In this document: one piece after another, positions 1 through 63,224 of the stretch | How the letters are laid out: the number at the start of each line of letters is the position of its first letter | Position numbering within the stretch: position 1 is the first letter of the stretch | Source of the DNA: Ascaphus truei | Lineage: Eukaryota; Chordata; Amphibia; Anura; Ascaphidae | Assembly: GCA_036426205.1 (NCBI GenBank) | Contig: CM071570.1 | Location: 76,558,187 to 76,622,186, forward strand | Direction: 5' to 3' | DNA: 64,000 nucleotides | Program-made: the position numbers and the translations under genes | Notes under the pieces: model-generated | What the model was told of the DNA's origin: nothing | Seen by the model: only the letters and a program-made list of their open reading frames with translations | The model's database searches: none

Positions 1-430
1 TATGCACCCAGGCACACTAAAGGGCTATTTGACCCAGTGAGAGAAAATGGCACTTCTGATTTTTTTTTGCATTTAGGAAAATTATTTTACGCATTTAATG
101 CCAATGATTATTAAATCAAAAACGATGAGCGATGTATGACACTGCACTGGGGGATTTGTTATTATGTACACATCATACAGTATACATTATTGTAGAAGTG
201 GTTTATGCAGTTCCACCCGTACAAAAGATTATAATAGCAAGCAAAGCTTCTTGATTGCAACAGAAATCCCCTAATCCAATACACGATGCAAAAAATAATT
301 CAGGTATAACATTCTCCCTTTGTGAAAGGGGGAAAGAAAATTATTGGTATGAATAAGGTACAAAGGGTTAACATTATGAAACAAACCATACATGACATTT
401 AGAGAGAGGTGGATTCAACAGAAATCATGG

Positions 431-547
431 GGCTTAATCACTATGGTCCATTGCAGGCTAACGCACATAATCCGGTGTTAACTGCTATTGACGTGAACTG
501 GCTTGAGCGGATCTGTTAGCCCACAATGGACTTTAGTGAATTTCCCC
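431..547. mobile_element. Palindromic MITE, Harbinger-like ends
   Basis: The arm at 437-462 is the inverted complement of 515-540 with about 22 of 26 bases matching. The outer ends read GGGGCTTAATCACT and AGTGAATTTCCCC. The TTCACTAA-type end resembles the terminus at 40455-40478. Short length, paired arms and no coding capacity fit a MITE. The family is inferred. Confidence 0.55.
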
Positions 548-1815
548 CTATGTGTGATTAATGACATACAAAGAGAAGCAGATGTGCTGTTATGTGCTTG
601 TTCAATGAGAGTGAAGAAAGTAGGAACGTAAAAAATAAAAGATCTGTGTCGCTGCTACCTCCATCACAATGACCATCTTGAGTGGTTGTTTGTCAATAAA
701 GGAAGATGGTGCTGGTTATAGGAAAATGAGTGGGACTTTGATAGCTATATACCCATCCTCAATCTGAAGGGGGTTTCAGGATTATTCCCAGCAATTACTC
801 CAGAAGTATCTTGTACCTTCCAGTTGTTTAGATACCAGTTTATTCAATAACCAAAAGGGGGTCACGTTTTTGGCATAAGTACTTAGATCTGTATACTATG
901 CATTGTCAAAAATATTTAGCACAAGGTTAACTAGCCTTAACATTGTGGTGTATTTTTTTTCTTGTAACAAAATGACCGTTTTGTTAGTGTGCACAAATAG
1001 GTATTCAGTGTTACCTAACTTTATTCCCTGGAAAATGTCTATATTTTATGGAGGTATGAACTGTATGTTCAGCATGCAACACTGTAGATGAAGTCTCACA
1101 GTCAGTGAGCAATTGATAAAAGCAGCAAAAGGCTATGCTCTAACATACCGTATGCCATAATTCATTCATGGTGGAGTAAAAGTCTGATAGAGAAGCAAAC
1201 TAAGAATTACCATGGAGACACAGAACAAGTACTGTAGAAGTGATGGGCAAAGCACTCAAATCTTTACAATAAGATTTCATGTTGTACAGTCTCAAACCTT
1301 TTGCAAATCTAAAAACACTGGATATGATAGGTGTTCAGATCTTCCTTCCAAGTATACTCCATGACAAGAATGGTAAATGGACAGCTGTGCATGAAATGGT
1401 ATCGAAATGGTATCATCGTAAACTTTTGAAAGTACAGGTGAGTCACTTAATGATGTTCTGTATTGTAAGGTCTTTCAAAATTATTAAAAAAAAACTATTT
1501 TTAGAAAAAAAACGCATGCATAGCAAAATCATGCAAACTATGAGAAGTGGAGTGGCTCAGTGAGTAAAGACTGACTCCGCTAACAACTACACTGTTAGTA
1601 TATCGATAAATGCAGTAGCGGGAATTGTAATAGCACATAGACGTGATAACTAATACAATGTACATGTGCATTAGAACAAAATCTAACGCGTTCCAATGAA
1701 CGCACTACCACTGTGTAATGTATGGGGGTTACCTAAATGTAACGGCCATGTGTATGCAAAAATTAAACTAATTACACAGCACATAGGTTTGTGCCATTTT
1801 TGCCTAATGTTACAG
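548..1815. other. AT-rich non-coding stretch
   Basis: No recognisable protein homology. It lies upstream of Myb-like gene A and could hold the 5' part of that element, but no exon could be assigned. Open frames are short and unremarkable. Confidence 0.5.
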
Positions 1816-3610
1816 GTGTTAACACGGCTGAGGAGGCTTCCACCTCTGCTGCTGCTAAAGCCTCTAAGCTTAGGAGCATCACATTTACAAATGCAAAATT
1901 AGACATGCTAATTAATGGGGTTGTGGATAACCACCCCAAAACTTTAGGAGAACTCTGCTCTTAAACAAGCACTACAGAGAAAACAAGAATGTTTTATTCT
2001 ATTTCAGTTGCTATTAATGGACAAGCTAATACTGTGAGTACTGTTGACAAGAGCAAAACAAGATGGAGTGACAGTAAGTGAATAGTTAATGAAGAAGCTT
2101 GGTGACCATTCTACAGAGTCCAGATGCATAGGAGGGGGACCACCACCAGAGCTGACTTTGTCCTCCTATAAATGGAGAATGATGGAGGTGATAACCGCTC
2201 AGGTTCTTGGGCTTCCAACATTGGTGGACACCGGAGATCTTCCTGATGCGCAACCTGGTAAGTTCAAACACACAACTTATATAATACAGTCTAATGCAAT
2301 ATAATGTTGAAATGTTATATTAATGCCAACCATTGTGTTACATACATATGATTACAGTATCAATAACATGTCAGTCACATAACCATGTGGTGGGTGTCAG
2401 GACGTGCCATTGAGACCACCCACCTTCGGCACTAGCGCATCCAATGATACTAACATTGTCTCAACTAAGATGGCCAAGATCGCAGGTTGTCTCGCCAGGA
2501 AACCAGGAAGAGGCCTCATTTCACCCTAAACCAATATGGAGACTGATATTGGCTACATCAATACTCAGCCAACGTAAAGCATCCATTTACAACCAGACAG
2601 TGCCAGAGCAAGATGTCTTTCCCTTGGCTTGGTGTTTCAACTATAGTATTCTTGCTTGTGTTTCTAACCATGAATCGCCCTGCACTTTGCCTTATATGCC
2701 GCTTGCACTGCCTCTTTGCCTGAATATGGATTCTGCCTTGCCTTCTAGCTACTTTGACCTTGGGCCGTGACCTCGACTACGCCTCTGCACCCTGCCTCAA
2801 CCTTGGCCTGTAACCCATACTACACCTTTGAACCCTGCCAAAACCTTGGCCTGTGACCGGAATTTGCCTGCTCTATAAGGACTCAGTCCAGAGGCCTGTG
2901 TTCAGTCACCACATCCTGAATCAGCCCTGTGGGTCGGCTTCCTGGTCTGAGACGATCACTGTCAAAGTGGGCAGTTCTCACAGTAACATATATGTATATG
3001 CTTATCTTCAAGGTCTCATAATCTTCAAGTGTAGTACAGGCCAAGACTTATACATTACAGACATGTAAAAAAAAGTAATCAGTAATCAATGTTATCTCCA
3101 TAGTAATGTTAATTAGTGCCTTTTATGTGACATTAATAAAGTGTTATATCATTGTTAATATTAGCAAATGTAAACTCGTGTATATATATATTACTCATCC
3201 TATTAATGTAATATAACATTTATGTTTATTCACACACACAACCCCTACTAATTTTATTACATATACCCCCGAAAAAATTATTATTAGTATTATTATTATT
3301 ACTGTATTTGACCATATTTCTTTTACTTGTCTCAGGGACCATCGCAAAGACAAGAAACTGCTGCATTAGAAAGCTCTATGGAGGTCTCCTATAAGGAAGA
3401 GCTGAAAGTGGAGGACACTAATCTAGAAACTGACTGAAGTACCTCCAGAGGAGTATGCTTCTCCAGTTCCAACTTCTTCATCAGCTCCTGCATCAGCTCC
3501 AGTTCCAACAGGACACCGTTCAAGAGAGGAAGATGATGGGGCTATTCTGAGTTATCAGCACCAGTTGCTGAAAATTCAGCGTTCTAACTATCGTGTCTTG
3601 TATTTAGTTT
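1816..3610 (+). pseudogene. Harbinger-associated Myb/SANT-like protein gene A, decayed, three exons
   Basis: Partner proteins of PIF/Harbinger transposases bind DNA through a Myb/SANT-like domain. Three exon-like pieces are visible. Exon 1 (about 1816-2070) follows a TTACAG acceptor and contains SITFTNAKLDMLINGVVDNH and then TRWSDSK just before a GTAAGT donor; the middle needs a frameshift after a TAA. Exon 2 (about 2117-2257) carries IGGGPPPELTLSSY, MEVITAQVLGLPTLVD and DLPDAQPG before GTAAGT. Exon 3 (from 3336, after CTCAG) starts GPSQRQETAA. After a frame change it carries the Ser/Pro/Ala-rich SREEDDGAILSYQHQLLKIQ tail typical of these proteins. Predicted vertebrate relatives are often named 'myb-related transcription factor, partner of profilin-like'. 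Frame breaks make it a pseudogene, or sequencing error has broken it. A 588-bp LTR-like unit lies in intron 2. Confidence 0.75.
2395..2982 (+). mobile_element. LTR-like unit (probable solo LTR) in intron of Myb-like gene A
   Basis: Begins TGTCAGGACGTGCC and ends GGGCAGTTCTCACA, giving the TG...CA ends of an LTR with loosely inverted termini. Internally it has repeated CTTGGCCTGTGACC-type blocks and a TATA-like CTATAAGG at about 2874 near the 3' third, as expected for an LTR promoter. No convincing target-site duplication was found, so the ends are provisional. Confidence 0.5.
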
Positions 3611-4921
3611 GCTGATAACGCAGAACAACTGCCATCATAGAGTTCTTTGTCAGATCCTGTGGCAAAGTAATACGAATGAAATGAATAGCATGGCTCTACT
3701 GACCGGTGCAGTGAATGGCCTAACATAGGCTGTGCAGTAAGCCACGGAGAGCAAGCAAAAGCTATTTCACTGTATCTGGGGTTTCAGTTCACACATCCAC
3801 TGCTCTTCCTCCTTCTCCACCTAGTGCACCAGTGGCCCAACCTCCATGAAAGCATGGGAGACTATTACTAAGGGGTCCTAGTCAGCCTGTCACTTTCTCT
3901 GCCAAAAAGAGGAAAAGATCATTTATTTTTATTTTCCCTGCAAATGTCAATCTGACAATTTGTTTCCTATATACAGTATGTTCATTTTTCCCACAGTGCA
4001 AGTACTGTCTGAGTTATTACATGTTTAGTTCACAATTGCTGTTTCTTTGTATGTATTCTTAAATTGCTTACGTATATACAGATGCTTTTGAGCTGACATA
4101 ACAATTTAAGAGAGAGGGCCATGTGCCAGACCAAAGGGATATTCTGTGGTACCACCAAGTTTTGGTGTGACCAATTTATCACAATGTTATTTCTGTGCAC
4201 AAACATTACCGGAGTTAAGTGCATCTGCGATGTTGGTATAATGGATCACTAGCATATTATTTGCATATGGCTCAGTGTAAGGTCCGTAGAAATGTATCCA
4301 CATGTTATTTGACTGAGTAATTCTAGGTCAACGTTACGCTATTCTCTTTAGTGGAAAGGCATTGGGATTAACGCAACGTTAATTTAGGTCCTATATTTGC
4401 ATCTCTTACATCAGACACTGATCTCTTGAGCAAAGAGGTTAATACCACTCAGGCAAGTGAGAAAGGAAAACTGCATCATTTAAATCCATCATTTTAATGT
4501 CACAGTATATTTCCACATAGCATCACATAGTTAATTCACATAATGTTCTTACATAAGCCACATATTATTATATTATTATTATTACCATTTTATTTAATTA
4601 TGTCTCTAAGTCATGTCTATATACACATATACAAAATATTATATGGTTGGTTGTCACTGGCGCCTAAAACATATACCAGGATATACTGTTTATATATATT
4701 GCACATCTTAAGCCTTAATGTGTACTATAGGCATTTTTTATAACATATGTTGTATGTTATTGTTATTGTATTTGTCATATCTGTCTTTGTCCCTCATGGA
4801 AGCTGATTTGTCAAATTAGTTATGACACTATCATTGCTCATGTCCGGAACTTCAGTCAGGTGTACTGAACATTTTAATTATGGATGCCTATATATATGGA
4901 CACACCGAGATACTTTCTATA
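3611..4921. other. AT-rich non-coding stretch with short TAA/TTA runs
   Basis: No coding homology seen. It includes a short (TTA)n-like run near 4560-4590. A (TTA)n-like run at 3278-3302 precedes exon 3 of gene A. It probably contains the 3' part of the Harbinger-type element, but no terminus was recognised. Confidence 0.4.
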
Positions 4922-4965
4922 CACCCCTGAGGAAGAAAGCAGTCGCTTTTGAAACGCGTAGGGTG
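4922..4965 (+). ncRNA. Hammerhead-ribozyme-like motif 1
   Basis: Read as RNA this gives a type I hammerhead layout. Stem I is CACCC (4922-4926) with GGGUG (4961-4965). The core CUGAGGA is 4927-4933, followed by one extra A. Stem II is GAAAGC (4935-4940) with GCUUUU (4945-4950) around loop AGUC. Core GAAA is 4951-4954. A 2-bp stem III AC/GU has loop GC. The cleavage triplet GUA is 4958-4960. Minimal hammerheads with a tiny stem III are known from Penelope-like element terminal repeats. The extra A after the core is unlike the textbook motif and may reduce or abolish activity. Confidence 0.6.
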
Positions 4966-5330
4966 GTCCCGCTGACTTTGTCATTGTTGCCCCTCACAAG
5001 CACTTGGCCGTTTTCACGGCGAATCTGCAGTTGCAGTTGGCGAATCTGAAGTTCTTTGCAAGCCTCCATCAGACCTCGCGAGACCAGGTGTGGCGCTCCG
5101 CCCGGACAGAAACTGCGGGAGATCGGGACGCGACCTGTGTCGGAGAGAGGGGCCAGGAACCACTGTGCCAAAGACGAGAGGGGAGACTCTCAGATATCTC
5201 CACCGCCTACTACCACTTTCCATCTGGTAAGTGGGCAGTCTATCTGTACCAGAGGAGGTTCCAGTGGGATCATATCCATAGGATAATTTATCTCATGAGT
5301 GTTACACATTGTGTTGTTTATTAAATGTTA
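4966..5330 (+). mobile_element. Non-autonomous element body downstream of hammerhead-like motif 1
   Basis: Moderately GC-rich segment following the hammerhead-like motif and ending in AT-rich sequence near 5330. Its arrangement resembles the hammerhead-bearing segments at 20885-21480 and 24450-25190. It has no coding homology. I infer a Penelope-derived terminal repeat or a small retroelement mobilised by one. The 3' boundary is uncertain. Confidence 0.35.
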
Positions 5331-5675
5331 TTATTAATTCAGTTCACCTGTTATTCGTTTTAGCTTCCATGTTTCACTGTGTGTTAGCATAAGTGTGTGT
5401 TATTCATGTTATGATTTTACAGTATTATGCTATGTATTCTATTTGTTTTCATTTCATGTATATGAATTTTCCACCGACTGAAGCCCGTTCCGGGAATTGA
5501 GTCATCTGCCAGTCCTGGTTGTATAATTTATTTATTTTTACATATATTTACATGTGTTAGGCGCAAGAGATATCTATCTTTCTTCTATCATTTAACACCC
5601 TACTGCTCCCCAAATCGCTCACTGTAAAGAGAGCAACATTGGTGAAACCAATACTGATGCAATAATACAAACAGG
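5331..5675. other. Non-coding AT-rich stretch
   Basis: No open frame of note and no recognised element. It contains CCCTACTGC near 5588, the inverse complement of the GCAGTAGGG in the MITE that follows. Confidence 0.4.
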
Positions 5676-5775
5676 GCAATATTTACTAAGCAGTGCTATT
5701 TGGTTCCCTTGAATGGGCAGTAGGGTGTCTTCCAGCATTTGTGTTTATGGCATAGCACTGCTGAGTAAATATATG
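5676..5775. mobile_element. Short hairpin MITE
   Basis: The arm at 5679-5699 (ATATTTACTAAGCAGTGCTAT) pairs with 5752-5772 at 20 of 21 positions around a central part of about 50 bases. Size and symmetry fit a MITE. No target duplication was assigned. An eroded copy is at about 52380-52483. Confidence 0.55.
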
Positions 5776-6399
5776 TCAGATAATGTCCATGTGTAAACTT
5801 TTCTACCTATCTGTGTTAGGTTCCAGTTTGTCAAAACAACATTATATTTTTTTCGATTTCAAGTGACAAGTTTCCATTCATTGTCATTTTATGTACCAGG
5901 GATAATTTACAACTCAGGAATCATAGTTGACAAGGACATTGTTATTGTAAACTGCTGTTCTCCGTATATTGTTTAAGTCAAGCTTGACGGTCCCAAGCAT
6001 GTTGCCTTTTAATCCTTTGATTTTTATTTTGTTCCCACCTATATCGGTCTCCTTTACCAACCCAGTACTATGTACTCTTGAGCTTTAATAAAAAATGTTT
6101 CACATCCTATAAAGTAATTATTAAAAGTACATTGGTAACCAGAGTCCTTCAAATCCAGGGCTGAAATTTTGGAAAGGCGCTAAGATATGTGATACCATCT
6201 CTACCACTTTTAACAGCTCTTTCATAATTAAAGAATTATTTTATATATTTGCAGACGTAGACTCCAGAGCCCAGTGATCTTGGCTGCCTTTTAAATGAAC
6301 TTTTAGAAGTCATCCAAGTGGCCATGTTTGAAGCCCCCCAAAAAATGCACATTTATTTAAATCAAAAAAACAAAAAAGGGTTTCACAAAGCAGTAAATC
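5776..6399. other. Non-coding stretch
   Basis: AT-rich with no recognisable protein or RNA gene. A poly(A)-signal-like AATAAAAAATG occurs near 6087 without an associated gene. Confidence 0.4.
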
Positions 6400-6720
6400 A
6401 TCAGCTTAAAGCAGCAGTCCAAGCTGCCGTTTAAAAAAAAAAATGCTTTAAAATAAAATCCACACAATAACTAATTAGCTAAGCTGCCGATCGATCCGTT
6501 CTCCTGTGATCGATCAGAGATTCGGCTCGGTGGTTCACTAAATGGCTGTCAGTGCAGCAGAAGAGAGCCAACGATACAAAGTTCTGTGAGTAAGATCATG
6601 TGACAAGGCAGTCACTAGATACAATTGGTGCACTGCTAGAGAGAGGGCAGGGCTCAAAAAGGGGTGTGCCAGAGCTTGTATCAGAGAGGAAGAGGATGTG
6701 ACTTTGTGAATGGTTGCTAT
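6400..6720. repeat. Probable dispersed repeat beginning near TTAAAGCAGCAGTCC
   Basis: Starts with TTAAAGCAGCAGTCCAAG near 6415, contains a short A-run and GATCGATC inverted bits at 6490-6520. The composition resembles dispersed DNA-transposon sequence in frog genomes. That resemblance is from memory and there is no terminal-repeat proof here. The duplicate is at about 53118-53420. Confidence 0.35.
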
Positions 6721-7493
6721 AGAAACAACAAATGCTTGTTACATTATAATACATGAAACATTTAATTCAGGAGTTGTTTTAAAAAAGAATGTTATTTGCT
6801 CATAGTACTTAATTGATTTTTTTTTTAATACACATATAGGATATTGCTTAGTCCAACTTAAAAGGGTACAGAAACAGTTTTTTAAATTCCCATTTTTTCC
6901 TTGCTTAATGTGGTACGATTTACTTTTAGCATCCTCTGTCTCAGCTTTGCTATCCTGATGTTGGCCCATATAATTTTGATAAACCGGATAGGGTTTTGTT
7001 ATGGTTATTGTTGGTGTTTTCCATGAGTATTTCCTATGTTTTAGAAAGTATAAACAGGCAGCAACAACCTGAAAACCCCACAGCAACATAACACGTTCTC
7101 TACCATTGTTCATTTATGTCAGGGACTTTCATATTTTTGTTTATTGAGAACCACTGCAATGTTCATAATAACTTGGATAGTCGTACTTATCTGTGTTCAA
7201 TGTGTTCAAATAGACTGGACGGGAATATGAGGATCAGCCCCCAGGAGTGATACAAAAGCCCCAAACATCAGGAGAAGGTTGTCTAAGGTGCATTTTAAAG
7301 GATTTTGGGGATCACCACTAAGGTCTTTGCGGACCAACGGTCCTGGAACACTTTTAGAGCCACAGACTTAAGTAAATACACTTTGTAAATGTAGTCCTCT
7401 TATCATAACTACAATATACTCAATACCAAAGACCCCAAACCATAGAATACATGCTTCGTTTCTTGAGAATCAGCTGGGAGCTTTCCCTTAAGG
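6721..7493. other. Non-coding stretch
   Basis: No element or gene recognised. The longest frame (124 codons, minus strand, 6739-7113) shows no motif and is disrupted in the duplicate copy. Confidence 0.4.
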
Positions 7494-7689
7494 CAGGAGT
7501 GGCCAACTCCAGTCCTCAAGGGCCACCAACAGGTCAGGTATTCAGGATATGCCCGCTTCAGCACTGTTGGCTCAATCAATGGTTCGGTCGAAGACTGCAC
7601 AGAGATATCCTGAAGACTGAAGCAGGGATATCCTGAAAACCTGGCCTGTTGGTGGCCCTTGAGGACTGGAGTTGCCCCCCGGGCCCCTG
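7494..7689. mobile_element. hAT-type MITE with long terminal inverted repeats
   Basis: Starts CAGGAGTGGCCAACTCCAGT and ends with the inverse, through GGACTGGAGTTG to CCCCTG. The inverted arms extend about 60 bases on each side through AGGGCCACCAACAGGTCAGG and TTCAGGATAT. CAG-type ends with flanks CCTTAAGG and ATCTAAGG (5 of 8 matching) fit a hAT element with a decayed 8-bp target duplication. Confidence 0.75.
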
Positions 7690-8979
7690 ATCTAAGGATT
7701 ATATGCAGAACATCTTGCAGAGTTCCAGTGATCAGGGAGACATTATTGAGCAGCTTTTAGAAAATTACTGTTTCGGTCATCTTTAACTGGCCCCTCTGAA
7801 ATCATAGGGGTTAATGGCCCCTCCATGAAAAGGTAACATCGTTATTGTTCCACAACTGAAAACTGTGGTAATGGGTTTACAAAGGAATTAATAATGCAAA
7901 GTTGTGTTATGCAGGCTGTCCGCCAGCGTCTAAACTTTGCACTTATCCTTCCAAAGGTCTTTAGGAAAAACAACATTTTCCCACTCGTTCAGTACGCAGA
8001 ATGTCCGGAGGAGCATATACCATGCTGGAATCTCCTAAAAGAAAGAGAATTGGCTTCAGCCTCGCGGGTTATTAGTTAGGCTGGCTTAAAGCTCATTAAG
8101 GCTAATTGATATGACTGTACGAGCTATGTCTGTGGGACTGCCTGCCTGGAAACTTTTGGGCACAAGACAGAGTTGGGTAGAAGGTCTCCAACTGTGAACA
8201 GCCACAAAGTAGCAGAAAGACTGTCCACTCTGATTATCCCCCACAAAAGCGCTAATATTTTATTGCAGAATGCTTGTCTGATTACCTTAGCTTATTATGT
8301 TTTGATCTACCCTCCAAAATGTGCTAATTAAACAGAAATCATCAAGTCAATTAGAGAGAAGCTCTCTCCAAAACGAAATAAAACCTCAGATAAGGGAAAT
8401 ATGTCGACGTGAAAACCACGGCCAACTGCAATGGTTTCACCAGATTAATTAGAATGATTATTTTAGCACTGGCACAATCTTATAAACAGCATTGCAAAGG
8501 CAACAGATTCACTTTCTGCAGGCAAATCAAAACAGCATTTTACGGTTCAATCTTATTTAGCCACATATACAGGTAGATCAGTGGCACTAAAGTTATATTG
8601 CTTATTTTAAGATTAGTTTTACAGCGTATGTTCAAAAGCAGCACAACAATAAATACCACAGAATATTGCAATATTTATTACATCTGTTGTGGTGCTCCAT
8701 AGGGGCTCATACCGTATCTACCTGAGGAAAAATGCGGTAGTAATAAATATTTCCTGTAAATCTTTTTCTGAAAAAGGACGTGAATATGATTTACTTGCCC
8801 AGATCTAACTATTTCTTTAAATGAAGCTCTCGCGCACCCTGCCTGTGGCAGCACTGCATGCCAGTAGTACCTAGTGTTGACTCAAGAGCAGGGTTTTTAA
8901 TTTGTAGTGGCCCCACAATGGTTCCGAAAGTCAATCCAATTCTCCAGACAACAGACAGGGTAACATCCCCATCATTTAC
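7690..8979. other. Non-coding stretch
   Basis: No coding homology or element ends recognised. AT-rich. Confidence 0.4.
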
Positions 8980-9380
8980 AAGGAGATGCAGGAGGAAGGC
9001 TTAGGCTGCGGCCCCGCTGCCTGCGCTGCACGCGAGCCTGCGAGGCTGGCGGCGCGTGCAGTCGAATTCCCCGGTCTGCAGAGAGCTGCAGGGGGAAAGA
9101 CAGGAGGGGAGTGACGGGAGAGTGATGGGGGCGTGGCCGTGACATCATGCGGCAGGTTCGCCCTCATTGGCTGAACCGCCGGGGGGCATGGCCTAGCGCT
9201 CTGTTGCGACTCCTGATCTTAATTTTCTTGAGAGCAGGAGTTTCTGTCGGCGCAGCTCGGCGGCCCCCCCCCCCCCCCCGAACCGGGTCCGGCCCCATTG
9301 TGGGGCGGCTCTTTTCCATGCAGCGTCCACCATAGCGGGCACCGCAGTAGTCAGCGGGGACCTGGCCTTAGCACTACCTG
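8980..9380. repeat. GC-rich, CpG-rich repeat segment with a 16-C run
   Basis: A sharp GC-rich island in AT-rich surroundings, with many CpGs, CTCATTGGCTGAACCGC (containing an inverted CCAAT box) near 9157 and a run of 16 C at 9264-9279. Frames on both strands here are composition artefacts. It could be a CpG-rich MITE or a promoter-like island; no transcription unit is visible. The counterpart is at 55690-56095 with a shorter C run. Confidence 0.45.
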
Positions 9381-10449
9381 GCACTTTAAACGTGTTCTTT
9401 ACAACTCTTCACATTCATGTCCACGTACATACCATATATCTCTCAGTCTAAGTCCTGTTTCTTACTGTCCCCTCAGTATCTTTGTCCTTCAATAGTCAAC
9501 TGACAACTGTCATGCATACAGCATGGGCCTCGTTCTTTGGGGTATTACACATTCACCCCCTAATGCTTATCTACCTATTACCTTAATGTAATAAATCAGA
9601 TATAAAATATCTAACATATCTTTGCAATGCTATGTACAATTTGAACATATATAAACTTAATATTAAAATGATCAAAACTTTAGATTAACATCATACTAAA
9701 CAAAAGATAGAATATAATGCACGAGTGTCAGGATATTTGAAGTCACATTTAATCCTTATTTTTAGCTATCACTCAAAATATTACAAGAACCTCTGCAGGG
9801 TCTTACAAGTTAGTGAGGCACGTGTGCTATCCACTATATGGACAATGTACTGTATGTGCGGATTACTTTCCCATTTTGTGGCACTTTTAGATTCTCTACT
9901 ATACTGTTCACTATAATAATTTTGGTCATTTTGCTCGAAGCCATGTGTTGAACATCTGCGCCCTGTATACCGCGTATTTTGCTTACGGCCAGCAGAGTCC
10001 TTTCTGCTTTGACCTTGACCTCCATCTAGTTTGCTCACGTTAACGGCTTCTGCAGTTTGTGTACTGAAGTGTAGGTTTCTCTCAAAATCCATCTTCTCTT
10101 GTGTGGTGTCTGCAGATTACAGACCAGGGGGCCTGTCATAGCTCCGAAGTTGTGAGTGCCAAACGGTTTGGCATGTACAGAAGTCGCGGTATGAAATGGG
10201 TGAAAAAAATCCTATTCTCTAATGCAAATCACATCTTCGAAAGTGCGTCTTAAAAAAAATGGCAAACAAGTGGCGTGTAATCATCTTGCGAGACAACACA
10301 TCATACACAATATATTAAGCTGTCATTTAAGACAGCTTGTGTCAGTGCAGGTGGTAGTGAGGGAGAGACAGACTGAGCTAGGTGTTTGGAGGTATTTGTG
10401 ATAGTGTGCATTTGGAGCAATGTATGAGTGAGTAGTCTTCTATATTCCT
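9381..10449. other. Non-coding stretch
   Basis: AT-rich with no gene recognised. A short perfect inverted repeat AAGCTGTC/GACAGCTT with loop ATTTAA lies near 10318-10339 and may be the end of a small element. Confidence 0.4.
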
Positions 10450-10720
10450 TTCAAATGTAATAATAATAATAACTTAATTTATATAGGACTTTTCTCCCAA
10501 TGGGACTCAAAGCGTTTCGCAGTTACATAAGGGAAAAAGAAGAACAGATTTAAGTGTATAAACGAGATCAAACACAAGGAAGGATACAATACAGGGTGGG
10601 ATGGTACTGTAGTTATTAAGTGCTGGACAGGTTGTGGTTCATTGATTAAATGCCCAGGTTGATTTCCAGAGAGTGAGCCTCTCGAACTGTATGAGGCAGA
10701 CAGTTCCAAATATAGCGCAT
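10450..10720. repeat. Dispersed repeat with TTTATATAGGA...CTCCCAATGGGACTC signature
   Basis: A short (TAA)n leads into ATTTATATAGGACTTTTCTC and CCCAATGGGACTCAAAGCG, a signature that recurs in many vertebrate and invertebrate genomes as part of dispersed non-coding elements. Class not determinable from the window. The duplicate is at about 57275-57530. Confidence 0.4.
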
Positions 10721-11070
10721 CTTTTAATTCCGTTTTTTATATTCAGTCACTGTTTTGTGTGTCTGTTTGGAAGAGTGAGTGATATGGAGGGGAGGATTGA
10801 GATGGGGCGTGTGAGTGGGCATGAAAGGAGTGTGAATGAGGATAAGAGGCGTGTGCAGAGTGGAGGTGTGGGGAGGTCAGGAGGTCAGGAGGCCTAGAGG
10901 GCCACATGTAAGGGTTGAGATAGGGAAGTCCAGCAGGGGCTCCCAGGATCCGGGGCAGTAAGAGGGCTCTGGGAGGAGAACAAAAGACAGCACACCTCTG
11001 AAGCCTCAGATGTGGAGGCTCCGGCATCTGATGTGCCTCCTCCTCCATGCAGAAGGTGCCTGGAAGAGGT
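10721..11070. other. Purine-rich stretch before Myb-like gene B
   Basis: G/A-rich on the plus strand with GTCAGGAGGTCAGGAGGCC repeats near 10874. Part of it may be the 5' coding or untranslated part of gene B, but no start codon could be justified because the frame is broken. Confidence 0.4.
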
Positions 11071-11159
11071 GTGGGGTGTCCGCTTTTCTGCTGAAGAAAA
11101 TTACGTCTTGGTGGAGCAGGTGGTTAGGTGATATGATCGGCTGTTTAGTTGCTTATCAG

Positions 11160-11964
11160 GTAAGAACACCAAGCACAGAAGTACAGTGTTCTAATTAAGA
11201 ATGACATGTACTGTAAAGTACACAGAAATATAAACATTAACATGTAGCATACTGTAGGAGGAACGCGCAAAGAGGTATGCAAGGGAGACTTGTTATGGTG
11301 AAATTAAATAAGGCTTTTATTGCGCCTGTTTCCTTAACATCAGAAAACCATCAAAACAAGGGGTCAAACAAAGCTTCTATTCACTTGGGAGTATTTCTAG
11401 CGAAACCTATGCAGTGCACAACTCCCTTTAGATAAGCATGTCTCCCAGCCCCAAACATATATCTTGATATGAGCAGATATACCAAAAGTCTTATAAAAGA
11501 AAGTCTTATCTGTTTCTTGTGGTTGGAGGGAAAGTCTTCTCTGTTCCTGGGTTGCTGCCTTTTTCCTCAGGTTTTGGCAGCATTCACGGTTTAGAGGTGT
11601 TTTCCCCTGTGTCTTGCAGGCAGCGTGCTGTTTCTTCTGGCAGGCTCAAGACATCTGTCCCCATGGCCAGTCTCACAACTTGTGAGACTCAGGAACAATC
11701 TCTCTCCCTGTCTCAAAAGACAGGCTTTTCTAAGAAGCTAATCAGGCAGGTGGTGTCAGATAATGAACTACCAGCAGTTAACCACCACACTGCTGGATCA
11801 GAGGCACATTTCCTGAACAGGGATAACTCCCCTGTTACACATACATTTTCACACTCCCATTTATATGTAAGATACATACATGCTGTAACTCAGGGGTGGG
11901 CAAAAATATTTAAAACTTACGAGACATGGCACATTTTACGAACCCCAACCGCCCCTTATGAAAT
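11160..11964. other. 5' intron part of Myb-like gene B
   Basis: Contains a plus-strand frame of 218 codons from 11519 that runs into the solo LTR. It has no recognisable domain and is destroyed in copy 2, so it is not called a gene. Confidence 0.5.
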
Positions 11965-12576
11965 TGTAAGGAATCGGGGAACACGTCCTCCGCGGCGCGC
12001 TCCCTCCTTACCTGCCGCTGCACAGCTTCTCCCTGCAAGACGTCTCAGAGCACGTCCCCCGCGGCGTGCATCCTCCTTGCCCTCTGCTGTGCAAACCCTA
12101 GTGCTTCTTACAGAGCCTCCACACTCATGGAGAACTTTACACCTATCCAAGGAACTTGGCTCCGGAACCCGCTGACGACACAAGGCCGTCCCGTGATGCG
12201 CGTGCACCGCTTTCCAGCTGCACATCAACTCTGATTACCCACACCTATTTCCTGCACCATTTACAGCCTATCCCTGCCTCCATTCTGCACACACTTCTGC
12301 TCCTCCCCTCCTCCATTCTGCTCTTCCATTGGCTTCCTCCTGCTATATATGCTCAGCTAGTGCATTCACACTTGGCCACGGCTGTACGGACTTTGACTAT
12401 TCTACTGGCACTGACCCTCGACCTTGGCAAGTACAACTACTAATCTGCTTTCTCCAATCCAGACCCAGCGATCTTGACTATCCACCTTCCAGGCGTGCCT
12501 CCGCTGCTGTAGGTTTCACACTTTCCCACCTCAGTACCGGGGTCCTTACTTGTTCGTGGTGAGCACAAGCGTTACA
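11965..12576 (+). mobile_element. Solo LTR, probably Ty3/Gypsy type, with perfect 5-bp target duplication
   Basis: Starts TGTAAGGAATCGGGG and ends AAGCGTTACA, so it has inverted TGTAA/TTACA ends. It is flanked by GAAAT at 11960-11964 and GAAAT at 12577-12581, the 5-bp duplication made by LTR-retroelement integrases. CTATATATGC near 12341 is a TATA-like box. No internal coding region is attached, so it is a solo LTR left by recombination. It lies inside the intron of Myb-like gene B. Confidence 0.88.
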
Positions 12577-13173
12577 GAAATATACTAAAGGGGGCAGGAG
12601 GGCTGTAACCCCTCTCTTGTTGGTGTATGTGCCACATATAATCAAACTATAGTATCTGTAAGACACACACACGTTAGAATAGTTATCACATTTCCACTCC
12701 TTAAACATGTGATTCTCTACATCTAACGTACCCAATAGTAACAGCATCTCTACATTTGTTCTCCTATCTGCTTCCAGTACTAAAAGCACCGAAAAGACAA
12801 GGTTTATGAATGAGATCTGTGGTGCAGTCTCCTCCATAGGAGTATCCCAAAGGACGATGGAGAACTGCAAGAAATGGTTCTCAGACCTCAAAAGGAAGGT
12901 CAAGAGCAAGGAGGGTGAGAGCCATCGGCATGCCACTAAGACGGGAGGAGATCCTCCTCCCTAACACCTGCACCTAACCATAACGGAGGAGCGGCTGAGC
13001 TCCATCCTCAGCCAAGAGGTAGTCTGCGGGTTCCCAGATGACAGGGACATTGGGTATAGCGAGTCCCAGCTTGAACATGGTGAGTACTATGACATGAAAC
13101 AAGGTACAAAGGTTTTATGGGTTCAAAGTCCTGGGTCAATACAATGTTCAATGATGTACAGTACTGCAGCATC

Positions 13174-13281
13174 ACCTACATACATTTTAACACATCCAAA
13201 TGGGTATGTTAAAATGTATGTTAATGTAGGTGCACTACTGGCTAAATGAGCCAGTAGTGCACCTATATTAACATACATTTT
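13174..13281. repeat. Long near-perfect hairpin with alternative arm
   Basis: 13211-13243 pairs with 13249-13281 over 33 positions, 32 Watson-Crick and one G:U, around the 5-base loop AAATG. A third arm at about 13174-13195 can pair with the same left arm, giving mutually exclusive folds. It could be a MITE core or a hairpin RNA source. In copy 2 (about 60250-60357) the right arm has lost several bases. Confidence 0.7.
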
Positions 13282-14507
13282 CATTGCAATTATGTACAAA
13301 TTAATACATATCTGCTATTGCTCAGGATGAAGTAGTACTACACAATACATTTTTAAGATGCAATAAGATCATGCTAAGAAGAATGTGTGGCAAAATTGAA
13401 AAGTATGGTTGCAGACAGTGGTGCCAACTTCTGAAAAACCAATAACATATACAGTACAATGGCGAGAAAAAGTCTGTGAACCACTTAAGATTTTCAAATA
13501 TTTCAAATCTAAAATGTTATCAGCTCTTAATCAAAGTCTTGATAATAGATTAAGATATCCTGATCAAATAAATGACAGAAAAAACATTTTTCAACATTTA
13601 TCCACAAATTATTAAACATTCAATATCCATAAACAAAAAGAACGATTCCTGCGCTCCTACCAATTAGGCTAAAATAAAATAATAATCTCATGAAAAAGGG
13701 TTATTTTGTTAAACCCTTTGGCCAAAGCATTTATAAGCCTGCATGCCACGTCAAGGCATACCCGTTTAATGCAGGTACCTACACTAAATATATGTAATAG
13801 TTGTCCCATGGACTGGTGAAAAAGTGTGAAAGCCCTGAAGGGGTTAAATAAAGCATAAGCTTATGTGAGTAGTGCAATTAAAATCTGGCTAAAGCCAGTA
13901 CCAAAGTTACCTTACTGTAGAGGCAAACCGTGGGTGCACAAATTCCCTGGTGTGAATATAATGAAACTTACACATATTTCTATCTGTCAGCCTTATACAT
14001 TCACCTACTCTTCAATGGAGGGTAATGTCCAGACTTACACTGGGATGTATTTTACCTGCACTAATTGGAAAATTGGTAGGGGCTCAGTAACTGCTGTTTG
14101 CGGATAAACCAGGACGAAATCCAGACACAATTATGCAATAATCAAACCCCAGCCCTTATTATGGCTGCCTTATTATTGAGGGACGTTCTATTCATTTAAA
14201 TTGCAAAGAGACAATGTTAAAGTATAATCATATTACAATAAAGTATATTAAAAGACAGTTTCTTGTACTTTTATTTGCCAACATAAATAATATATTCCTC
14301 CACAGGAGACAATGAGCTAGGATGTATATGTCGTCTTGCATAGGTTGAACTTGATGGACATATGCCTTTTTTCAACCTGTCATACAACTTGACTTTGTAC
14401 TTCGGATCTCTATTGATCACTCATTTCCATCCACCAAGAGATATGTAGAGATGTCTTATGTAGATCACTCTCAGTGTAAGAGAGAGTTCAGTGGACAACT
14501 TTAGTTA
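13282..14507. other. AT-rich non-coding stretch
   Basis: No gene or element ends recognised. Short frames only. Confidence 0.4.
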
Positions 14508-14904
14508 CTGCACCGACACACTTTATTCGAGCAAATACCCGGTATGTACCTGGCAGATACCTGGAATGCGCCACTCCTAACCTCTGACAAGCCCCGTTGC
14601 ATTTGCCTTCCCAGCCTGGGTTCATGCCTGGCTGATGGGCGGCTGATCTGTTAAATGATAATGATTAGGATTTAATAGGCTGCAATGCTTCGCGTGTCTA
14701 CCAGATGGCATAAATTCATGAATTGTAATGCAGTTTATATATATATACTGTGCAGTATTGCAGCCAGCGGGAATAAAATGCTTCAATCCCTGCTTGGAAA
14801 ATAACTCAATGTACTCGGGCAGAAAACAGTCACAAACCTCAATACACCCGGGTATACCCGAATTCGTGGGACTAGCCAAGCTCGAATAAAGTGTGTCGCC
14901 AGTG
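14508..14904. mobile_element. MITE with terminal inverted repeats and TA target duplication
   Basis: The left end CTGCACCGACACACTTTATT is matched by the inverse of the right end, reading CACTGGCGACACACTTTATT, and both continue TCGAG. The shared CGACACACTTTATTCGAGC is perfect. Flanking TA dinucleotides (14506-14507 and 14905-14906) fit a Tc1/mariner-type insertion. No coding capacity in 397 bp. Confidence 0.78.
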
Positions 14905-14906
14905 TA

Positions 14907-16161
14907 TATATCTTTGTGTCACAACACTTCTAGGGCAAAGCTAGGATGATGCTCCTACGGGCCATTTTCTCAACCACAAAGCAACTCTGTTCAACAAGAA
15001 CATGGGTGGGTCGGTGGGGGGAGGGGAATACCCTTGGGGTTTTCTAAAGGACCTTATTGCCCTGTCTATCTCACCGTCTGCGTTTTACTGCCTGCGAAGA
15101 AAAAACACTGGAGCATCACATACAGTACTTGTATTTGTTTGGACATGAATATTCAGTAGCCTAATATGAATAAGGAGAACATCAAACATCAGGGGGAGCA
15201 ACCTACATGTAAAACAGCCCATATTTAAAGTAGCCCTTTTTAAGTGGCATATAGTGTGGAGTTTAACAGGGAGTTCAACAGGAGTGAACAAGTGGACAAC
15301 ACAGCACCTACTGGCCTTAAATCCTGGATTTGAACTACGCTGGAAAGGAGGATATTATCTATCTCAGAATGCACATCTCAGCACTAAACTATTGCTGCCA
15401 TGCCGCCACTACTACAGTATTTATATTTGCTCTGACATTGCTTCTTTTCAAAATACGCGTTTCTTTCTACAAGCCTCGTCATGTCTCTAACTCGATTCAT
15501 ATATCTCCACCTCTCCTTCTTTCATCACTTCTCAGTTCACATGAACTCCTTTCTTACCTGCGCCCTCTGAAACTACACAGCTATATCCCCTGCACTAAAA
15601 CACACCCCTACAAATAATCATGAATATACAAATATAGAAAATAACCTGGCGCAAAGTGTACAATATATTTGTGAATAGTTTTTTTCTTTTTTGCTGCAGA
15701 CTGTTATCTAGATGCAAAGCAGGCAGCATGCAGTGGAGAGAATCTGTGATTTTCCAAGTCCCAGCGTTTTCAGGCACAGCACGAACCCCACGAGGTGCGC
15801 CGTCTTCGGATAGGCTCAGATAGAGTCTTTTTCTCCAGGTGTTGTCATCTGTGTCCACTCCCGTATTCCTGTATATGCAACTCCAACCAGGGATAAAAAA
15901 GGGGGCAGAGGGTTGCGCAATACCTAAAAACCTTTTAATACCTCCAATGCACAAACAGACATATACTCACAGACACAGTGAGTTTTATAATCAATAGTAG
16001 CGCCCGACCCGGCTGTCCAGCAGCAAACACCAGTCCCTGGCAGTCCTTGCCGGTAGCCGCGTGTATCTCGCGATGCTCCGGTGTCAGCGCGGTGACATCA
16101 CCGCTTCCGCTTCCACACAGGTAGCTGAATGTGAAAACAGGCCGGCGTCTCCTTAGGCTCC
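14907..16161. other. Non-coding stretch leading into a hammerhead-bearing element
   Basis: From about 15640 to 16161, read on the minus strand, this is the segment downstream of hammerhead-like motif 2, with a GC-rich portion (16000-16130) followed by AT-rich sequence, the same layout as near 4966-5330. No coding homology. Confidence 0.45.
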
Positions 16162-16204
16162 TCCCTACGCGTTTCGTGATGGGGCGCGTCACTTCCTCAG
16201 GGGA
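16162..16204 (-). ncRNA. Hammerhead-ribozyme-like motif 2
   Basis: On the minus strand, stem I is UCCC (16204-16201) with GGGA (16165-16162). The core CUGAGGA is 16200-16194, followed by one extra A. Stem II is GUGA with UCAC around CGCGCCCCA. Core GAAAC is 16175-16171, then GCGUA as minimal stem III plus triplet. Stems I and II differ in sequence from motif 1 but still pair. Confidence 0.6.
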
Positions 16205-16239
16205 TTGTCCCACAAATAATCCTCACACATTCTCTTTCT

Positions 16240-17440
16240 TTCCATGCTTCTTCTCCTTGTTTCTGGGGATATCTCTCCCAATCCTGATCCCTGCTTTATT
16301 TCTACATACTTTATCCTCGCCTCTCGCATACAACTTCTACTCCTGGTGTCAACCCCTCTGACCTCAAACCCATCCCGTATCACCCTCCCTCCTCTCTCCC
16401 TTTCTCCTGTGCCCTTTGGAATGCACACTCCCTTTATAACAAGTTCCTCTCTGTGCATTACTTCTTTTTCTCTCATTCTCTGCTCCTCTTTGCTATAACT
16501 GAGATTTGACTTACTCAGTCTGACTCTGCACTGGAAGCTGCTCTCTCTTATGGTGGCCTTTCTTTCTTCCACACTCCACGCCCTGATGGCATGGGACTCC
16601 TCCACTCCACTCTCTGCCATTACCAACTGCTTCCTATTCCTCCCTCTCTTGCTTTTCCCTCCTTTGTCCACACTGTCTAGATTTTCTCTCCCCTCTCTGT
16701 CCATGTATCGGTCATCTATCGCCCACCTACCTCTACTCATCCACCTTCTGTCTTTCTCTATCAGCCAGAATCCTGGCTCTCTTTCTTTCTCTCCTCAGAC
16801 TCCCCTGTTCTTCTCCTTGGGTACTTCAACTGCCATTTTGATGACCCATCTCTGCCTTGGACTTCCTGCTTTCTCTCTCTAACCTATTCTTTTGACCTTC
16901 AACAGTGGACTGCAGCCAGCACCCAAAAGGATGGCCACTACCTAGACCTGTTTTTCACTAAAAACTTTTCTCTCTCCGATTTCTCCATTTCCCCCTTTCC
17001 TCTCTCTGACCATCACCTCATCTCATTTTCTCTCTCTCACTTCTCCCCTTCTCCACCTCCATCTATCCCTTGTTTCTGCAGAGACCTGCGCTCTATTAAC
17101 CTACCAGCTTTTAATTCCACTTTACGCTCCACCCTCTCCTCCAGACCCTGACAAACTGGTCAGGAACTACAGCTTTGCCGTATCCTCCTCTCTTGATCTA
17201 CATGCCCCGCTTTCTCTCTGCTGTTCTCGCCCCGTATAACCCCAGACCCTGGCTACGTTTCCACACACGCTTGCTGCATTCCTGCACTCATTCCTCTGAA
17301 CGCCTTTGGAGGAAATCTCACACTCGCAGGCTTCCTTCACTACAAATTTATGCAATCCTGTTTCAACTCTGCCCTATCTAAGGCTAAACAAACCTACTTT
17401 TCTTCACTAATCAACAAGCACAAGTCTAACCCATGAAGGC
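16240..17440 (+). pseudogene. Non-LTR retrotransposon (Rex1/L2-type) endonuclease remnant
   Basis: The apurinic endonuclease that opens ORF2 of Rex1, L2 and CR1 LINEs is recognisable across frames. From 16408 the frame reads CALWNAHSLYNKFLSVHYFF and then FAITEI, where the E (16501-16503) is the metal-binding Glu and the following Trp codon is TGA. A GDFN-type motif appears as LLGYFNCHFDDP near 16820. FDLQQWTAAS and DGHYLDLFFTKN follow, and the SDH motif appears as LSDHHLISF at about 17002-17028. The later part has LERLWRKS-like and AKQTYFSSLINKHKSNP regions that precede the reverse transcriptase, then homology ends near 17440 with no RT. The copy is truncated, frameshifted and mutated at catalytic positions, hence dead. 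Family placement is from pattern memory. Confidence 0.72.
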
Positions 17441-17550
17441 GCTTGTCAGACCTTTTGCCTGAAAAAACATTGTTACATGGAGCCCATATAAGCTAATGCT
17501 CGCTGTTACCACAGCTTTAAAGCACAGCAAAGCCAGAGAAACCATTCAAA

Positions 17551-17581
17551 GACATGTTTCAACCTTAATGGGTATCATCAG
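17551..17581 (-). ncRNA. Hammerhead-ribozyme-like motif 3 (canonical CUGAUGA core)
   Basis: On the minus strand, CUGAUGA (17581-17575) is followed by U, the 3-bp stem ACC/GGU around CAUUAA, a U, then GAAACAUGUC (GAAA core, stem III AC/GU with loop AU, triplet GUC). Both core strands match the hammerhead consensus. Stem I pairing is weak, which lowers confidence. It lies outside the large duplication. Confidence 0.5.
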
Positions 17582-17634
17582 TGTAAAGTTGTTGTATTGC
17601 TGGCTTTGCAATCTTCAAGGCTGTAGGACTATAT

Positions 17635-17637
<3 letters not shown>

Positions 17638-17671
<34 letters not shown>
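17638..17671. repeat. (TA)n microsatellite
   Basis: Uninterrupted TA repeat of about 17 units. A further (TA)n tract resumes at 19001, so one TA tract appears split by the unit between. Confidence 0.95.
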
Positions 17672-17673
<2 letters not shown>

Positions 17674-17674
17674 G

Positions 17675-18998
17675 TGTGTAACAGGTTTTCCCCCCCCCCC
17701 CAATCGCAGATTATACTGTGGGTGCGGAGAAACATAAGGTGTTACCATGGGTGTGGTGCGTTACCTGTTGGCTCACAGGAGGGCTGAGCTTCCGCCATGG
17801 GGGAAACCTGGGGCAATATATTTTAGGGGTAACCACTTACTCAATTCAGCGCCTCCACCTGCGATGGCTTTGGGTGAAACTCCTAGGGGTCTACAGGGGT
17901 TAATAACCTGCCCCACCCCCCTAACTCTTCCCAGTCATGACTACTACTTAACTGATCCCAGCGCCTGCAGCAACAAGCTGTGACCCACTGGATGCTCGCA
18001 GCCAAAGTGCTGAGCAACAAGGTGCCTGCCTGTCAGACCTCACAGCACTGACAGCCGTGACTCTGACAAGGCAGCACTACACTAAGGGCAGCGTCCCTAT
18101 CTTGGGCCTCCCTCAGCACTTACCCACTAACCTAGTGGGGAGTTGGGGCCTACCTGGGGTGTGGGTACCTATCTGGGTGCAGGAGCTGCACTCACTCCCC
18201 GCACCCTTCCTTCCCTCACAGCTCCCTGACTCCAACTCACTTAACTGATAACTATCAGCGCATGCAGCAACGCACTGCAACTTAACATTAAGTCCGCTTT
18301 TGCCTTTCTTCCCTTCTGTTCCCCAGCTCCAACTAATGTAAGTGACAGGGTCCCTAACCTGAGGGCTGTCCCTGGCAACACTCACTCTACTGGGGAACTT
18401 AGCTATCTCGGGCCCTGGGGGTGCTGGCCTAGTACAGGGAGTCCCTGACTCCTGCACCCTACCTCCTTCCCTGGGCTGCTCCTGGCTCTGACTCACTAGC
18501 GTGGGCTCAGCGCACAAAATGTATCTCTTTACCTTCTGAGACTTCCTAAGCCCAATTTGCTCCCTGGTATCACGTGGGGCACACAGAGGCTCCTGGGATC
18601 TGTAGTCCCTGCCTGGAGCCTTCCCTGATAGGCTAGGGCTTCACAGGCTTTTCTGGCTCTCTTCTGCGCATGCGCGATCTATCTGGGGCTGCCTCACTGT
18701 CTCCCTGCCTAGCCTCACGCGAGGCTGGGGTCCTTCCTGCGCATGCGCGATCACTGCGCATGCGCGAGCTAAGGGGTAATGGCGACGCCCTCACAGCCCG
18801 GCTCCGGGAGTGCCGGGATCCCTGTGACGCGCGTGCGGCCTTGGCAACTGGCCGCACGCGTCCCTGGCAACCCCCGAGCCGGGACCTGACCGCCCTCACC
18901 GCTGCGATCGCCGGGTGGAGCCGCCATTGGACTCGGCGGCCCCCGCGATCGGCAACCAGGTGAGGGGGGTGCTGACAGGCTGGGGAGACCTGGCTACA
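17675..18998 (+). mobile_element. GC-rich LTR-like unit inserted in a (TA)n tract
   Basis: Starts TGTGTAACAGG and ends CCTGGCTACA, so the ends are inverted (TGTAACAGG against TGTAGCCAGG). Flanks ATCTG (17670-17674) and ATCTA (18999-19003) match at four of five bases, consistent with a 5-bp target duplication. It has a poly-C run at 17691-17701, CpG-rich sequence at 18660-18960 and three NRF1-like TGCGCATGCGCG sites (18665, 18738, 18755). No coding region. A solo LTR is the best fit; the class is inferred. Confidence 0.5.
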
Positions 18999-18999
18999 A

Positions 19000-19046
<47 letters not shown>

Positions 19047-20884: not shown

Positions 20885-20925
20885 ATGATTAAGGACAACG
20901 CAGGTCCGAAACGCGTCAGTCAGAG
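20885..20925 (+). ncRNA. Hammerhead-ribozyme-like motif 4
   Basis: Degenerate core AUGAUUA (20885-20891), an extra A, stem II GGAC (20893-20896) with GUCC (20904-20907), then GAAACGCGUC (20908-20917) with minimal stem III and GUC triplet. Stem II is a perfect 4 bp with a sequence unlike the other copies. The 5' core has two mismatches to CUGANGA, so catalysis is unlikely. Confidence 0.45.
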
Positions 20926-29507: not shown

Positions 29508-29990
29508 CCTCTCCGAGACCGGGGATTGATCTCCGTGACGTCACTTCCGGGCCGGACGACGTGAGATACTTTTTTAATCTTTGCTCCTGTATTGACAGTC
29601 CTCGCGGGGGTTAGGATGGCGCTAGTTATACTTCTCGTGGTTAGTCCAAATGCATTCTGGCCAGTTGAGTGAGTCTCGAGAATAATATGCTCGACGAGAT
29701 TGCTGACGTCCCCAGCCACCCGGAGATGCGTCAATTCGGGTGATTAATGTTTGTAAGTTATTAAATGTCGTTTTTATATTGCGGGTCTAATCTTTGACAA
29801 GGGATTTCCCGAAAAGCGTCAGAGGGGTGGTGGTGTATTTTTTATGGTGTCTCACCCCTTTGGACAATTAAGGAGTTTTTAACCTATGGTTTGCTGGTTC
29901 CTTCTTGTTTTTGTCTCTGGGTTGTGCCTCCACTTTCTCCCTAGAGGGGTTTCTTTCCCTTATTTGAAAGTAAGACTGCATTATTTTACA
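29503..29990 (+). repeat. Penelope-like element flank, inverted copy I2
   Basis: Inverted counterpart of 24450-25190 with many small indels. Together they bracket the coding remnant at 25950-28220. Confidence 0.8.
29791..29823 (+). ncRNA. Hammerhead-ribozyme-like motif 5b in flank I2
   Basis: UCU (29791-29793) with AGA (29821-29823), core UUGACAA, stem II GGG/CCC around AUUU, then GAAAAGCGUC. The stem II sequence differs from motif 5a yet still pairs. GAAAC has become GAAAA, weakening stem III. Confidence 0.45.
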
Positions 29991-63185: not shown

Positions 63186-63224
63186 TCCCTACGTTTCGTG
63201 ATGGGGCGGTCACTTCCCAGGGGA
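63186..63224 (-). ncRNA. Hammerhead-ribozyme-like motif 2, copy 2 (eroded)
   Basis: Duplicate of 16162-16204 that has lost CG from the GAAACGCGTAG block and a T from the CTGAGGA complement, so the core is broken here. Confidence 0.5.

Follow-up and report, generated by a model that had tools for sequence, protein, structure and literature searches.

A hammerhead-like motif and its fold

We examined a 64,000-nucleotide (nt) stretch of the genome of the frog Ascaphus truei (assembly GCA_036426205.1, contig CM071570.1, positions 76,558,187 to 76,622,186 of the forward strand; hereafter the window), which carries a hammerhead-like RNA motif at positions 4922-4965 of its plus strand. This motif (copy A, of what we call family A) is probably a minimal type I hammerhead from the terminal repeat (pLTR) of a Penelope-like element (PLE), in a variant with a fixed unpaired A between A9 and stem II. 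An initial annotation of this DNA had listed all parts of a minimal type I hammerhead in order at this place, and reading out the sequence bears this out: the CUGANGA and GAAA elements occur in type I order, as in the minimal hammerheads of PLEs, with a stem I of 5 bp and a stem II of 6 bp (one of them G-U) when A4934 is skipped, or of 4 bp without the skip (Table 1). Within a single molecule stem III has 2 bp and a 2-nt loop, and its ACGCGU palindrome can be shared by two copies. The GUA triplet conforms to the NUH rule for cleavage triplets and is closed by A15.1-U16.1, and stem I in the window copies is a bare helix of 4-5 bp. The single A between core and stem II had been described as common to a second motif at 16162-16204, and that motif (copy B, family B) has indeed the same layout: at 16166-16200 of the minus strand, stem I has 4 bp and stem II has 4 bp if the A is skipped and 0 bp if it is not.

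The literal motif pattern occurs three times in the window against none expected, the third match lying in a duplicated segment described below. A generic hammerhead descriptor found three loci (4927, 16200 and 20885), as compared with a mean of 0.025 matches per shuffle (40 shuffles). The summed stem lengths by this descriptor, 11 in copy A and 8 in copy B, were seldom attained when the variable letters alone were shuffled (P = 0.0001 and 0.0003, respectively).

Compensatory change maintains both stems

We searched the window's own assembly (2.82 Gb, 19235 contigs) for the pattern CTGAGGAA-N(8-25)-GAAACGCGTA, which gave at least 5598 exact matches genome-wide as compared with 1 for the reversed control. 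Written as CTGAGGAAN{8,25}GAAACGCGTA, it matched at least 2844 times in forward and at least 2754 times in reverse orientation (backwards pattern: 1 and 0). For the study of covariation we took 100 places among the matches listed, all of which fell in the first 35 Mb of one contig (C1), plus the window, so that the sample represents one chromosome region together with the window. The 96 distinct copies with flanks formed 41 flank clusters, two of them being copy A and its duplicate.

In the representatives of the 41 clusters, stem I was paired in 150 of 205 cells (5 bp; permuted mean 119.9) and stem II in 151 of 164 (4 bp; permuted mean 94.7), and neither count was reached in 5000 permutations. 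The first three pairs of stem II formed in 40, 38 and 40 of the 41 clusters when one nucleotide was skipped and in 10, 9 and 20 when it was not, while the outer pairs of stem I were weaker (pair 5 in 17/41). An alignment of 31 copies, obtained by removing the five shortest and five longest representatives, had 82.9% of its 310 cells paired, against 56.4% in shuffled and at most 46.6% in slid controls; cells changed on both sides numbered 97 (35.7 shuffled), and the covariation score was 0.746 (0.228 shuffled, at most 0.220 slid). In this alignment 94.8% of the stem II cells were paired in the register with the extra nucleotide and 35.5% in the register without it.

The test for covariation in both stems that had been proposed with the initial annotation was thus run and passed, in the 41 clusters and in the 31-copy alignment alike, and stems I and II have the covariation support of a minimal hammerhead. 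Across many families of this genome, compensatory change preserves the two-stem fold, and the fold at 4922-4965 is real and evolutionarily maintained. That the motif resembles a hammerhead by chance is refuted by the genome-wide count and the covariation and opposed by the pattern, descriptor-shuffle and stem-length tests in the window; we found nothing in favour of it and consider its probability negligible.

Because the search pattern was anchored on the extra A, the 96 copies cannot tell whether this residue is fixed. A separate, slightly stricter genome search, allowing any non-A base at the extra position and requiring a C before GAAA, gave 71 exact matches. The first pair of stem II is G-C in 75 of the 96 copies, from which we estimate the comparable number of A-bearing copies at roughly 4400 and the share of other bases at about 1.6%. 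Among the 71 non-A matches, 22 had a single unpaired nucleotide (G in 10, U in 6, C in 6), 22 had none, 4 had two and 23 lacked a 4-bp stem. With so few non-A matches and stem II pairing mainly in the skipped register, the extra unpaired A is fixed genome-wide, and the proposal of a fixed derived form rather than random damage agrees with these counts. By eye, the extra A is also seen in copies that came from model R1 instead of the pattern, in loci L492, L483 (a weak match, E 0.14) and L572; R1 itself includes a column for this A. R1 was built from the 31 copies, window copies A and B among them, so that its scores for these two are not independent.

Related motifs flank Penelope-like coding sequences

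Motif loci elsewhere in the genome contain open reading frames (ORFs) of a Penelope-like protein with reverse transcriptase (RT) and GIY-YIG parts. The 509-aa ORF of locus L505 has 86 relatives, the named ones being mostly from frogs (Ascaphus, Pelobates, Xenopus, Lithobates, Leptobrachium, Ranitomeya and others) and one from a fish (Coilia). Pfam matched two of the nine proteins scanned, both below the cut-off (RVT_1, E 9.5e-5, 22.6 bits, cut-off 29.6; GIY-YIG, E 2.1e-4, 22.0 bits, cut-off 22.6). Across 27 motif loci, 16 C-terminal ORF matches represented 14 distinct ORF ends (one end in L493 and one in L501 appear twice), and for 12 of these 14, in eight loci, a sense motif lay 278-1315 nt downstream within the stretch at hand; the ORF ends in L497 and L501 had no sense motif downstream within theirs. 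PLE matches occurred in 9 of 18 motif loci picked for motif pairs or known families, as compared with 2 of 20 random loci. Solitary motif pieces are common, so the PLE link rests mainly on the motif-flanked elements and on the published pLTRs of PLEs.

The closest relatives of family A that we fetched are three copies in L497 and its neighbour L566 (91-93% identity over 54-61 nt), at C1:8537589 (-), 8543070 (-) and 8547759 (+). Plus-strand ORF pieces of RT and GIY-YIG, at L497 7641-8216 and 9487-9999, lie between the last two of these motifs, which puts the plus-strand motif some 670 nt past the ORF end, across the border of the two loci. A relative of family B in L493 (85% over 48 nt at the motif) has two motifs, with PLE ORFs of 314 and 279 aa lying between them. 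Related copies therefore flank PLE RT/GIY-YIG ORFs, and at the level of the family the location is that of a pLTR in such an element. The connection with Penelope terminal repeats drawn in the initial annotation stands to this extent, while the window copies themselves lie apart from any detected coding sequence: copy A is a pLTR fragment with its fold intact.

A TATA box precedes the motif in about half of the families

The TATA box upstream of copy A (Table 1) belongs to a wider pattern. In 11 of 21 flank clusters a TATAWW box starts within the 13-nt bin that spans -44 to -32 relative to the core C, and each of the 14 other bins held 0 to 4 clusters; since copy A and its duplicate are both among the 21, this corresponds to 10 of 20 independent clusters. 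A TATA box thus stands at a constant distance upstream of the motif in about half of the families; copy B lacks one. Transcription usually starts about 30 nt downstream of a TATA box, so the peak puts the motif near the predicted 5' end of a transcript, and the start would lie some 5-10 nt before stem I. A copy in L495 and one in L496 diverge from their relatives at 7 nt and 3-5 nt before the core, respectively, weakly suggesting insertions that begin at the predicted start; the other pairs compared had ordinary divergence. Downstream of copy A, the repeat-like block at 5174-5246 includes a donor-like GTAAGT at 5227 that might point to splicing.

Motif pairs are often inverted and head-out, several loci having long inverted arms, and direct pairs are present in L496, L497 and L506. 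A direct tandem as the sole PLE layout was rejected, inverted pairs being frequent. The head-out pairs and their arms would suit a motif that matters as DNA, for instance as an inverted-repeat end recognised by a transposase or recombinase. Inverted pLTRs are, however, a published Penelope trait, described for a rotifer along with a TATA box in the pLTR (PMC3846280); moreover, the conservation obeys pairing rules with G-U allowed, direct pairs also exist, and several inner regions contain PLE RT and GIY-YIG ORFs. We regard a DNA-level role as very improbable.

Comparison with known hammerheads

Minimal type I hammerheads occur by the thousands in many animal genomes, partly in PLE pLTRs, and tandem copies may act as dimers in cleavage (PMC7761336; Cervera and de la Pena 2014 and Lunse et al. 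2017, via PMC7761336 and PMC6466107). As described there, they share with the present motif the type I order, a very short or absent stem III, the pLTR location, thousands of dispersed copies and the proposed dimeric action; set beside them, the feature here is one unpaired A after CUGAGGA, fixed in the genome. The hammerhead of the Anolis Poseidon PLE likewise lies in a pLTR and has C3 and G8 in its core; as reported in PMC11167929, its cleavage requires the PLE protein and is lost in C3G or G8C mutants. There the ORF begins inside the ribozyme, whereas the motif of copy A lacks an ATG, and a TATA box stands just upstream of the motif in about half of the flank clusters here. Newt and axolotl hammerheads of retrozymes and satellites are also of type I, with a weak stem III and a palindromic loop, and work better as dimers (PMC7229834); the motif described here differs from them in its carrier, a PLE pLTR, and in its bare stems.

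The bulge position recurs in hammerheads of IMG/VR contigs, presumably of phage. We filtered these for at least 4 bp in stem I and at least 3 bp in both stem II and a stem III hairpin, and obtained at least 99 matches (at least 86 distinct) with no extra nucleotide and at least 91 (at least 83 distinct) with an extra U after CUGANGA, counts that are not rates. An extra A was found in 5 matches (4 distinct) among 58 candidates with a stem II, as compared with a mean of 1.2 and a maximum of 5 for shuffled flanks; a score of 11 or more was reached in 17 of 200 shuffles, the two best viral matches scored 16 against 15 for the best shuffled one, and one or two of the five may be chance. These hammerheads share the core and the position of the one-nucleotide bulge (U or A) with the frog motif and differ from it in having stem III hairpins. 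IMG/VR contigs (L123, L158, L223, L258, L286 and others) contain many three-stem hammerheads, and some of the contigs have two or three pattern matches.

Run over 8 viral and 20 random frog loci, model R1 gave six matches, one of them a filtered viral hammerhead (L453 at 6937, E 0.56); random frog loci outscored it (L572, E 0.0063; L577, E 0.054), so that R1 shows no kinship to the viral hammerheads. The exact frog form matched at least 120 IMG/VR loci, which we set aside as chance because their best summed stem was 5 bp, against 11 in copy A and 8 in copy B; a stricter version of the exact-form pattern gave 0 matches in IMG/VR. The single exact-form match in a prokaryote collection was taken as chance from its flanking bases (by eye), a phage blast of the locus gave no match, and no paper with the literal motif strings was found in the literature searched. 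Since minimal PLE hammerheads are published and the bulge position is also seen in viral-contig hammerheads, we file the motif under an already described kind, with a fixed one-nucleotide variation.

Dimer folding and the proposed role

With so short a stem III in the monomer, the active form would be one shared between two motifs. In nearest-neighbour folding, the dimer minimum free energy (MFE) structure of copy A is a complete double hammerhead (-32.3 kcal/mol; monomer -14.1). We propose that transcription starts a few nucleotides before stem I, so that the motif would form the 5' end of the PLE RNA and would appear again in an RNA that reads on into a second pLTR. Two such motifs, whether on the same tandem RNA or on separate RNAs, could then pair through ACGCGU into a shared 6-bp stem III, and this dimer would cut after GUA, trimming or releasing a unit-length PLE RNA, possibly with the help of the PLE protein. 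Such dimer-dependent, perhaps protein-assisted cleavage is the most likely role that folding and comparison predict.

Several observations weigh against a cleaving hammerhead of PLE origin. Single-strand folding energies are unremarkable (z -1.56 for copy A, +0.54 for copy B), and among the 31 representatives both stems appear in the monomer MFE structure of 6, the complete double hammerhead in the dimer MFE structure of 2, and the 6-bp palindromic helix in that of 4. Two of five covariation measures in this alignment did not rise above shuffles, namely pairs with change on both sides (8 vs 7.8) and further pair types (29 vs 28.8). The covariance-model search proposed in the initial annotation came out negative, as Rfam gave no hammerhead match in the window and hence no canonical hammerhead by curated models. 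It is a weak test, however, because at the gathering threshold Rfam likewise gave 0 hammerhead matches in five viral-contig loci, of which L123, L128 and L134 hold stem-filtered hammerheads and L158 one that is complete by eye.

Further points concern the element and its transcript. In 10 of the 21 flank clusters, family B included, the peak bin has no TATA box, and many motif pairs are inverted, so that a transcript has a single sense motif. In six of the eight loci with a downstream sense motif, head-out motifs enclose the ORF, a geometry that entails such a motif, so that the agreement of strands is partly forced and is free only in L480 and L504. PLE matches were found in 2 of 8 unselected motif loci, against 2 of 20 random 3-kb loci. 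The window itself gave no PLE match by tblastn over its whole length and no Pfam match in the frames searched (1-9999 on both strands, 9001-19000 on the minus strand). In the Anolis study, finally, no RNA ends were reported at the cut site, and cleavage was not needed for insertion in vitro (PMC11167929).

That cleavage-dead Anolis mutants still insert in vitro also suits a fold kept for a non-catalytic role, such as a binding or priming structure for the PLE RT, with self-cleavage weak or lost through the extra A and the 2-bp stem III; the covariation demonstrates structure, not catalysis. A plain two-stem structure would, however, have no need of the CUGAGGA, GAAA and UA core present in thousands of copies (the pattern required these letters, so the count shows how common they are), three-stem viral-contig hammerheads have one extra nucleotide at the same place, and the Anolis PLE motif does cleave with its protein (PMC11167929). 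A solely structural function is in our view unlikely.

A different matter is whether the window motif is now an inert fossil without any present role, in which case the fold of this decayed pLTR fragment would survive through recency. The negative tblastn and Pfam searches just described and the loss of stem I pairing in the duplicate copy speak for this, and the intact core, both stems and the TATA box at 4889-4965 against it; we put the chances as even. This alternative concerns the copy rather than the family, and is compatible with a family of minimal PLE hammerheads.

With its thousands of related copies, their strong covariation, a fixed one-nucleotide bulge and, in about half of the flank clusters, a constant TATA distance, this genome allows direct tests of two questions: does the bulged core cleave, and does the motif define the 5' end of PLE RNA? 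One may go further and imagine in frog PLEs a hammerhead subclass of its own, stably inherited, in which the unpaired A at the joint of A9 and stem II is obligate and which sits at the very 5' end of the transcript, behind a TATA box. As such a hammerhead could be completed only by a second copy, it would act as a copy-number or tandem sensor, uncapping or trimming the PLE RNA upon the meeting of two pLTRs or two transcripts, and the PLE protein might gate this step. We hold this extension to be doubtful, though conceivable.

Other motifs and features of the window

Table 1. Coordinates of the motif at 4922-4965, its surroundings and further hammerhead-like motifs in the window.
Feature	Position	Strand	Remarks
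TATA box TATATATA	4889-4896	+	38 nt before core C
Stem I, 5' strand CACCC	4922-4926	+	from sequence and pairing
Core CUGAGGA (DNA CTGAGGA)	4927-4933	+	
Extra unpaired A	4934	+	between core and stem II
Stem II GAAAGC-AGUC-GCUUUU	4935-4950	+	strands 4935-4940 / 4945-4950; loop AGTC
Core GAAA	4951-4954	+	
Palindrome ACGCGU	4954-4959	+	CGCG 4955-4958, T 4959; stem III 2 bp intramolecular, 6 bp intermolecular
GUA triplet	4958-4960	+	cleavage predicted after A4960 from hammerhead rules
Stem I, 3' strand GGGUG	4961-4965	+	
Repeat-like block	5174-5246	+	79-80% identity with downstream portions of the motif-bearing repeats of L487, L490
Family B motif (copy B)	16160-16206	-	same layout with extra A
Possible decayed motif, family D	20885-20925	+	core AUGAUUA then A; stem II GGAC/GUCC; found by descriptor
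Decayed hammerhead-like motif, family C	24845-24890	-	core UUGACAA, no extra nucleotide, GUC triplet; by eye, limits approximate
Second copy, family C	29785-29830	+	core UUGACAA, stem II GGG/CCC; by eye, limits approximate
Duplicate-segment copy of family A motif	51617-51667	+	stem I broken
Duplicate-segment copy of family B motif	63184-63226	-	core damaged by small deletions

A 17-kb segment at 1-17009 has a direct duplicate at 46675-64000, with 89-92% identity. The third literal match, at 51623, has a broken stem I and a stem II of 5 bp; it represents no independent family because it falls within this duplicate. The two segments differ by 1163 gap columns in 879 openings against 546 substitutions, an indel-rich pattern suggesting that one copy was left uncollapsed or poorly polished and did not arise by biological duplication.

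Family C is a separate repeat family, in which C3-G8 is exchanged for U3-A8 in both copies; both have the GUC triplet, and ACGCGU is kept in one (all by eye). Its copies were missed by model R1 and by the generic descriptor. The same exchange is a natural covarying variant, and ribozymes with covarying bases at these positions are active in vitro according to PMC3088659. The family D motif reached only 9.5 bits in R1 (E 1.4, covering 20893-20916), and two further R1 matches in the window, at 55414 and 8716 (E about 0.02), were weak and set aside.

At 19630-20670 lies a degenerate minisatellite with ACCTCC-rich units and multiple overlapping periods. The plus-strand reading frame at 16240-17151 adjoins the family B repeat and, by eye, presumably resembles the endonuclease region of a long interspersed nuclear element; Pfam at 0.001 gave no match for 16681-17151.

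Further features were noted in motif loci outside the window. L488 1-2335 may be a near-complete palindrome centred on PLE coding sequence, with a motif in each arm, and in L498, near 1001-1060, a head-to-head inverted-repeat junction apparently lies inside a hammerhead motif (by eye). On the minus strand of L493, near 495-540, a short tandem run of the 15-bp unit GACGAAACGCGTAGG begins inside the motif (by eye), as if the reverse transcriptase had slipped there.
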